Shown here piece by piece: positions 35,755-36,468 of a stretch of DNA of 64,000 nucleotides (positions are counted from its first letter, which is position 1; each line of letters opens with the position of its first letter). The stretch is from Bartonella fuyuanensis (lineage in GTDB: Bacteria; Pseudomonadota; Alphaproteobacteria; Rhizobiales; Rhizobiaceae), in the NCBI RefSeq assembly GCF_014197255.1, contig NZ_JACIFE010000004.1:1-64000 (forward strand). Direction: 5' to 3'. The notes under the pieces were generated by a model. That model did no database searches. It was not told the DNA's origin and was given only the letters and a program-made list of their open reading frames with translations. Both the position numbers and the translations under genes were made by a program.

Positions 35755-36468
35755 TTAATATTTACGGATAAGTCCAGTAAGCTTTCCTTGTATTTCTACA
35801 CGCTCGGATTTGTATGTCCGTACTTCATAGTGAGGATTTGCAGCTTCTAAGGCAATAGAGGCTCCATTGCGTCGATACCGTTTTAATGTTGCTTCTTTTT
35901 TATCGATAAATGCGACAATAATCTCACCTGATATTGCTGTATTTTGACGTTTCACAATGATTGTATCTTTATCAAGGATACCAGCTTCCATCATAGAGTC
36001 ATCTTTAACTTCTAATGCGTAGTGCTCACCTATATTTACCATATCGTGTGGCAAAGAAAGTGTGCTTGTTTGTTGCAGTATAGTAGAGGCCGGAACGCTT
36101 GCAGAAATACGTCCCATAATGGGAATAGTGATATTTTTTTTTTCTTCCGCCTCAAAATCACCAAGATCACTCAAATTTTTTGATCTTTCTCTTTTATTTT
36201 TTTCTATCATACTAGGAGAAATTTTACGTGCTAAAGAAAGGTTAAATGTTATTTTCTCAGGGAGTCGAATCACCTCCATTGCACGAGCACGATTAGGCAA
36301 ACGATGTATAAAACCTCGTTGTTCTAAGCCTATAATGAGTTTATGAATACCAGATTTTGAGGAAAGTTCTAATGCATTTTTCATTTCCTCAAAAGAAGGA
36401 GGAACACCAGTTTCTTTGATATGATTATTAATAAACAAGAGTAATTCATACTGTTTACATGTCAGCAT
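35755..36468 (-). CDS. lexA: LexA repressor with atypical cleavage-site residues
   Basis: SOS-response repressor that normally cleaves itself when RecA is activated. The 237-residue protein has the N-terminal winged helix (about 1-65), an alphaproteobacterial linker, and the S24 peptidase domain. Catalytic Ser158 and Lys196 are present. The scissile pair is Ala123-Ser124 (GRISASVP) instead of Ala-Gly, and the Gly two residues before Ser158 is Asp (VKDDSMM rather than VKGDSM). The SD GGAA lies about 7 nt from ATG. Only a half GAAC element is seen upstream, not a complete GAAC-N7-GAAC box. The ORF is intact, but whether autocleavage works is open. Confidence 0.92.
   Translation of the reverse strand: MLTCKQYELLLFINNHIKETGVPPSFEEMKNALELSSKSGIHKLIIGLEQRGFIHRLPNRARAMEVIRLPEKITFNLSLARKISPSMIEKNKRERSKNLSDLGDFEAEEKKNITIPIMGRISASVPASTILQQTSTLSLPHDMVNIGEHYALEVKDDSMMEAGILDKDTIIVKRQNTAISGEIIVAFIDKKEATLKRYRRNGASIALEAANPHYEVRTYKSERVEIQGKLTGLIRKY

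Follow-up and report, generated by a model that had tools for sequence, protein, structure and literature searches.

A relaxed LexA cleavage site in Bartonella and a possible role of LexA as gatekeeper of the phage-derived ROR origin

The window analyzed here, the whole stretch of 64,000 nucleotides at positions 1 to 64,000 of contig NZ_JACIFE010000004.1 of Bartonella fuyuanensis, carries at 35755-36468 on the minus strand a lexA gene whose 237-residue product has Ala123-Ser124 at the position of the scissile pair. This raises the question of what keeps a LexA repressor with an altered self-cleavage site in these bacteria, and whether such a protein still stands at the head of an SOS response. 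The answer that we favor, and consider fairly probable on the strength of sequence comparisons, is that LexA would have been kept as the gatekeeper of the run-off replication (ROR) origin, acting through a candidate antirepressor, and that its cleavage site would then have drifted, with slower cleavage as the outcome.

The identity of the gene is clear: its product scores 158.5 bits against the NCBIfam equivalog model TIGR00498 (cut-off, 110.95) and is matched by both Pfam domains of LexA, PF01726 (residues 2-63, within the N-terminal DNA-binding part formed by residues 1-72, 36253-36468, minus strand) and PF00717. Residues 114-235 match residues 75-197 of the structure 1jhf in the PDB, and the offset derived from this match places residues 123, 124 and 158 on E. 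coli Ala84, Gly85 and Ser119, in agreement with the cleavage pair A84-G85 given for E. coli LexA (PMC11442139). The determinants of self-cleavage in S24 regulators are an Ala-Gly bond (Cys-Gly in UmuD) and a Ser-Lys dyad (PMC8565304). The LexA of the window has the dyad, with Ser158 at 35995-35997 and Lys196 at 35881-35883 (both minus), and lacks the Ala-Gly bond, since Ala123 (GCA, 36100-36102) is followed by Ser124 (AGC, 36097-36099; pair at 36097-36102, minus). On all these points the initial annotation had read the sequence accurately, including that AGC is a single base away from the glycine codon GGC. Immediately before the cleavage site, the coding strand contains a frameshift-prone run of 10 A (36134-36143, minus).

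To place the pair in context, 71 Bartonella genomes were searched and divided into 14 early genomes, which serve as the outgroup, have the old LexA boxes and lack the ROR gene described below, and the other 57, here called core. Across the genus, lexA is intact in 60 genomes, frameshifted in 3 and missing from 8, the latter being genomes of 1.4-1.6 Mb that are at least 99% complete; among core genomes, 46 of the 57 have an intact copy. The scissile pair in these 46 is Ala-Ser in 29, Ala-Gly in 9, Thr-Gly in 4, Ala-Ala in 2, and Ala-Asn and Ser-Gly in one each. Among named genomes, Ala-Ser occurs in B. elizabethae, B. rattimassiliensis, B. tribocorum, B. grahamii, B. queenslandensis, B. gabonensis, B. 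massiliensis, B. vinsonii, B. taylorii and B. phoceensis, Thr-Gly in B. callosciuri, Ala-Asn in B. florencae, Ala-Ala in B. koehlerae and Ser-Gly in B. clarridgeiae, with Ala-Gly retained in B. doshiae, B. washoeensis and B. melophagi. The initial annotation had asked whether Ser at this site is widespread in SOS-competent relatives, and it is not: Ala-Gly was read at all 124 loci outside core Bartonella, with Ser at none (0/124), comprising the 14 early Bartonella, 50 loci in a scan of named non-Bartonella genomes, and the 30 best-scoring of 191 genomes with a match in the order and of 173 in the phylum. The order and phylum loci are top scorers rather than a random sample, the weaker LexA-like matches being left unread, and the named-genome scan may overlap in species with the other sets; all Bartonella counts come from the 71-genome set only. 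An assembly error or a one-off mutation can be dismissed, and a sequencing error is unlikely, because the same pair recurs in 29 of the 46 intact core genes and in the C-terminal piece of the frameshifted lexA of B. queenslandensis AUST/NH15 (G030). In that strain the frame breaks at the matching A run, leaving the DNA-binding half open, and sequencing error, slippage and phase variation are indistinguishable as the source of the break.

The scissile pair must have changed at least 6 times by the lexA gene tree and 12 times by a recA-plus-ROR tree in which the frameshifted copies were included. This repeated drift is almost confined to a clade of 39 genomes that includes the species of the window (support 100 on the lexA tree and 38 on the tree used for the parsimony of box loss) and that we take to be Bartonella "lineage 4"; the exception is B. 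clarridgeiae (G015), which was left out of both the 39-genome group and the comparison group of six core genomes with Ala-Gly outside the clade. We compared the clade with conserved columns, defined as those at least 97% identical in 80 outgroup and 14 early LexAs (the named frameshifted copy L109 being excluded from the outgroup), and counted a column as changed when it differed in at least 4 of the 39 genomes. Changes affect 4 of 9 conserved columns around the cleavage site (residues 113-135; columns 122, 123, 124 and 127), compared with 7 of 29 in residues 136-237 and 4 of 35 in residues 1-72. At residue 122 (36103-36105, minus), where alanine is invariant in the family, the LexA of the window has Ser, as do 20 of the 39 clade genomes. 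Two residues before the catalytic Ser, Asp156 (36001-36003, minus) replaces a glycine found in 94/94 references and in the 30/30 best-scoring phylum loci; Asp is present in 39/39 clade genomes and, outside the clade, in a single genome (G028). In the DNA-binding part, the family-invariant residues R43 and E50 are replaced by K and Q, respectively, in 33 of the 39 genomes each. Elsewhere in the C-terminal domain, codon 167 encodes Gly in 94/94 references and Lys, Arg or Ser in 46/46 intact core LexAs.

The strength of selection was estimated as omega, the ratio of nonsynonymous to synonymous substitution rates, by the NG86 method over pooled pairs, without the three frameshifted genes. In the 39-genome clade, omega is 0.076 for residues 1-72, 0.187 for residues 113-135 and 0.186 for residues 136-237; in the six Ala-Gly core genomes outside the clade the values are 0.071, 0.043 and 0.134, and in early Bartonella 0.026, 0.018 and 0.026, the early values being approximate as synonymous divergence (dS) is saturated there (~1.6). 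Selection on the cleavage-site stretch is thus roughly tenfold weaker in the clade than in early Bartonella (0.187 vs. 0.018, with the same saturation). By these regional values, the protease half of LexA is relaxed yet far from neutral, a state compatible with slower or less demanded cleavage without proving either. The suggestion of the initial annotation that Ser124 could slow self-cleavage accordingly stays plausible, and gains support from the drift of the pair, the weaker selection and the replacement of Gly156 throughout the clade.

The same annotation had expected a dampened SOS response, which turns out to be the wrong frame, since the regulon that would be dampened is already gone throughout core Bartonella. 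The alphaproteobacterial LexA box is GAACN7GAAC, a consensus also visible in the present data. Within 300 bp upstream of lexA (149 and 236 bp at two core loci with less sequence), an exact box is present in 14/14 early Bartonella, 44/50 named non-Bartonella loci and 27 of the 30 best-scoring order loci, the other 3 having at most 103 bp upstream, compared with 1 of 49 core loci (Bartonella sp. A05). For recA, the figures are 12/12 early genomes with enough sequence (the upstream regions of G057 and G062 are too short and were set aside) and 0/57 core genomes, five of which have a one-mismatch site; for uvrA, they are 3/3 early and 0/10 parsed core genomes (G031 and G007 were left out, as the gene start was not parsed). 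Y-family polymerases (PF00817, E 0.001), the polymerases of SOS mutagenesis, are encoded in 14/14 early and 0/57 core genomes. In the genome of the window itself, no GAACN7GAAC box stands before lexA (36469-36768, minus strand, even allowing one half-site mismatch), and none was found at recA or uvrA, the sites expected of an SOS master regulator. With these boxes and the Y-family polymerases missing, the species of the window is without canonical SOS wiring. These features have also been lost in core species whose LexA keeps Ala-Gly, and the loss of the three boxes, the loss of the Y-family polymerases and the gain of the ROR locus all fall on the same early/core split. The recA gene is retained in 71/71 genomes; at 16 core recA loci (L159-L174) the first in-frame ATG lies well inside the gene, and the start codon is probably GTG or TTG.

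Exact LexA boxes were surveyed in three core genomes (G000, which is the genome of the window, G017 and G022), where 78 of 86 sites were read (25/25, 27/33 and 26/28, respectively). The raw number of boxes was dropped as evidence, being below a reversed control in all six genomes counted, two early ones included (25 vs. 43 in G000); most exact boxes therefore appear to be chance occurrences, and only conserved intergenic sites were considered, with recurrence between genomes judged by eye from the neighboring genes. Some exact sites within genes recur as well, whereas between genes a single site recurs in the same setting in all three genomes: a box upstream of a gene for a 129-residue protein, adjoining a gene for an XRE-type helix-turn-helix (HTH) protein. 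The gene for the 129-residue protein is present in 57/57 core and 0/14 early genomes, and its copy in G006 (1396318-1396704) fits the coordinates of BAnh111090 (1396315-1396704), which Table 2 of PMC3610622 lists among the conserved ROR genes. Its neighbors in the genome of the window, namely, a YqaJ exonuclease, a DUF1376 protein and a Toprim/DnaB_C-like helicase, are also in keeping with ROR, a phage-derived origin that amplifies hundreds of kilobases and is coupled to the Bartonella gene transfer agent (BaGTA) (PMC3610622, PMC6899734, PMC2697382).

The occurrence of this box follows that of lexA. The exact box is present in 45/46 genomes with intact lexA and in 3/3 with a frameshifted copy, and absent from all 8 genomes without lexA; in the alignment, the box together with its 7-base spacer is near invariant amid varying surrounding bases. 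Parsimony on a tree rooted with the early genomes (with weak deep nodes, support starting from 30) gives three losses of the box, each in a lineage with lexA loss; as such lineages make up 24.6% of the core tree length, the chance that three losses placed at random would all hit them is, crudely, ~0.015. The box seems not to be the operator of the HTH protein, because the HTH gene, parsed in 53/57 core genomes (those of G068, G002, G007 and G008 were not parsed), persists in 5 of the 8 lexA-less genomes, none of which has the exact box. No exact box was found within 3.3 kb of the HTH paralog in the genome of the window (L440) or of the HTH relative in G366. The promoter of the gene for the 129-residue protein (L323 and other ROR loci) consists of a -35/-10 pair enclosing an imperfect palindrome close to TCTCCYATAGAGGAGA, which is kept in genomes with and without lexA and may serve the ROR HTH protein as its operator.

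One explanation for the findings up to this point is plain decay, whereby SOS is being lost in core Bartonella, lexA is dying and Ala-Ser is a step of drift toward loss. It would account for the 8 genomes without lexA and the 3 with frameshifts among 71, for the disappearance of the regulon boxes at lexA, recA and uvrA, and for the whole-gene omega of 0.167 in the clade vs. 0.054 in early Bartonella (again with saturated dS in the latter). It sits poorly, however, with the survival of intact lexA in 46 of 57 core genomes, with an omega that stays at 0.076 in the DNA-binding part, with the retention of Ser158 in 39/39 clade genomes and of Lys196 in 38/39 (Arg in one), and with a near-invariant ROR box whose losses are confined to lineages that also lost lexA; we consider this explanation unlikely. 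Another possibility is that LexA remains fully active, with Ser tolerated at the cut site, cleavage normal and the SOS regulon rewired to a changed operator, as might be read from the small substitutes at the cut site, the intact dyad, the replacement of R43 and E50 of the recognition helix in most of the clade and the universal retention of recA; however, the one conserved site that was found keeps both the sequence and the spacing of the old operator, Y-family polymerases are absent, and Asp156 is a second departure beside the catalytic Ser, which makes this rather improbable.

The gene that the ROR box would control is a small open reading frame (ORF). In the genome of the window, the box (G000:C3:72829-72843), the second half-site of which (TTGTTC) lies by eye at approximately the -35 position, is followed by a -10-like TATAAA and a ribosome-binding site, AGGAGAG; a 49-codon ORF (G000:C3:72882-73031) opens with an ATG 38 bases downstream of the box. 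Across genomes, the ORF has 44-49 codons and a well-kept ribosome-binding site, and it extends antisense into the 3'-terminal part of the HTH repressor gene. In its layout the locus agrees with LexA-controlled antirepressor modules: a LexA-type box immediately precedes a small gene, and the gene of a phage-type repressor is close by. In G022, the box was assigned by the ORF caller to an upstream extension of the small ORF. Among the 49 genomes that have lexA or its pseudogene, 48 have an open frame with a ribosome-binding site (the exception being B. clarridgeiae). Over codons 2-20, which in the genome of the window are free of overlap with the HTH gene, omega across 48 genomes (without B. clarridgeiae and the 8 lexA-less genomes) is 0.28 in the frame of the ORF vs. 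0.48 and 1.70 in the other frames, and the small ORF is therefore probably a gene. Its product is predicted to form a two-helix hairpin (mean predicted local distance difference test [pLDDT] score 79.5; 29 of 49 residues at or above 90), and a profile of the family aligns with the C-terminal tail of the HTH protein (28 columns, 36% identity, probability 51), a weak likeness that hints at interference with the repressor by mimicry. Pfam searches with the 129-residue and small proteins returned nothing above the cut-off, and no S24 peptidase domain was found in the ROR HTH repressor.

The layout of the module points to a phage ancestry. Searches with the HTH protein matched 5 distinct phages (7 records), of which the two Rhizobiales phages were examined, Agrobacterium phage Atu_ph08 (49.5% identity) and Ochrobactrum phage POI1126 (31.5%), the weaker matches to a Dorea phage and two Synechococcus phages being left out. 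In each of them, a short ORF runs antisense at the 3' end of the HTH gene, with an exact LexA-type box nearby, the only one in the fetched stretches of 4.1 and 5.1 kb. The Atu_ph08 box occupies positions 1273-1287 of L441, and the ORF, for which the record has no annotation, begins at 1240. The POI1126 box (L442, 2307-2321) falls within what is annotated as the 5' part of gp72, making the layout similar to that of Bartonella ROR, not identical. The 129-residue ROR protein had no match among the phage records. Given the similar layout in the two phages, the ROR box and ORF look like an old phage SOS switch. That they would be inert remnants of a phage, recognized by some other protein or by none and without bearing on the retention of lexA, could be argued from the age that this layout in two temperate-type phages implies and from the available text of PMC3610622, PMC6899734 and PMC2697382, which gives LexA no role in BaGTA, but is doubtful in view of the decay of box and ORF in lexA-less genomes where the divergent promoter and the HTH gene (parsed in 5 of the 8) persist, and of the apparent purifying selection on codons 2-20.

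We therefore return to LexA as the gatekeeper of ROR. Core Bartonella LexA would no longer be in charge of the ordinary SOS regulon, and the perfect LexA box that arrived with, or stayed in, the ROR locus would be the reason for its retention. LexA would bind this box and repress the small ORF, the product of which would be an antirepressor that disables the XRE-type repressor of ROR, allowing ROR replication and thereby supplying DNA for BaGTA; in this respect, LexA may play the part that it has in prophage antirepressor switches. Once this was its remaining duty, the cleavage site would have relaxed from Ala-Gly to Ala-Ser, Ala-Ala, Ala-Asn, Thr-Gly and Ser-Gly, along with the change of Gly156 to Asp. 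As only small residues have replaced the original pair and almost all of these proteins retain the Ser-Lys dyad, cleavage is expected to be slower rather than abolished. More tentatively, LexA of core Bartonella might have passed from an SOS master regulator to a slow-cleaving gatekeeper with ROR as nearly its single target, a transition of which the relaxed scissile bond would be the mark.

Several observations weigh against this proposal. BaGTA is tied to growth and ppGpp in the available text of PMC6899734, and the R43K and E50Q replacements in the recognition helix may confer a different operator preference. The survey that singled out the ROR box covered exact boxes at 78 of 86 sites in three core genomes, with one-mismatch boxes outside its scope, and early genomes, too, show no excess of exact boxes over the reversed control. 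B. clarridgeiae has lexA and lacks both the ROR box and the small ORF; in G047, the home site has one half-site mismatch, and an exact box starts 21 bp away. Conversely, the small ORF is intact, with its ribosome-binding site, in 2 of the 8 lexA-less genomes, and 6 of these 8 keep a 15-mer with one broken half-site base (at the home position in G046 and G002), the other two, G007 and G008, having only worse matches, such that the box "lost" in these genomes is a decayed one. In many other genomes the -10-like TATAAA has not been kept, and the ORF starts further from the box in G012, G028, G037 and G040. Finally, the likeness of the small protein to the repressor tail is modest, and the structure model of the HTH protein (pLDDT 49) is too poor to be usable.

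A literature search, mostly without subscription papers, found no link between LexA and ROR in print, no report of the small antirepressor ORF and no cleavage rate for a LexA with Ser after the cut; the available text is silent on LexA and SOS in PMC3610622 and PMC6899734 and on SOS in PMC2697382. A 2019 review (PMC6899734) describes the control of BaGTA via ppGpp as proceeding by "a yet elusive mechanism". LexA, one box and one small ORF would form a candidate BaGTA switch that is specific and cheaply testable, and that connects to a question of protein chemistry, namely, whether LexA with Ser after the cut site still cuts. If the proposal holds, slow cleavage would produce rare, graded release, which may suit a lytic act performed by a small fraction of cells. 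The core genomes offer a natural series (Ala-Gly, Ala-Ser, Ala-Ala, Ala-Asn, Thr-Gly, Ser-Gly, frameshifted and absent) for following how a regulator is taken over after its regulon has collapsed.

Two further features of the window were recorded. In the gene-poor stretch adjoining lexA, an 87-residue ORF with a TRAM_2 domain (33975-34238, minus) is possibly, at a guess, the remnant of a longer protein. At 38823-40658, a pre-toxin VENN-type piece, an ORF with an LHH-type nuclease domain and a SUKH/SMI1-type immunity candidate follow in a row, which looks like the end of a contact-dependent inhibition cassette.

How the Bartonella protein relates to known systems can be seen first against canonical LexA, that of E. 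coli and most alphaproteobacteria, with which it shares the two domains, a TIGR00498 score over the cut-off and the Ser-Lys dyad, and from which it differs in the replacement of Ala-Gly and Gly156 and in the missing exact boxes at its own promoter, recA and uvrA. The classical lexA3 allele of E. coli is G85D, in which Asp blocks cleavage; Ser124 occupies the same position, but, unlike that Asp, is small and natural in 29 genomes. LexA-controlled antirepressors are described in Salmonella prophages (GfoA/GftA), in phage 186 (Tum) and in N15 (AntC) (PMC3121763), and the ROR locus shares with them a LexA-type box before a small gene and a repressor in which no S24 domain was found; by contrast, the Bartonella module resides at a domesticated origin, its ORF is antisense to the 3' end of the repressor gene, and both LexA binding and antirepression are predicted. 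The closest functional parallel concerns RcGTA of Rhodobacter capsulatus, which LexA affects via CckA (Kuchinski 2016, as cited in the available text of PMC6363796): in both cases, by prediction for Bartonella, LexA would influence the output of a gene transfer agent in an alphaproteobacterium, but the predicted target in Bartonella is not CckA but the phage-derived origin that supplies the DNA, and the agent itself belongs to another family.
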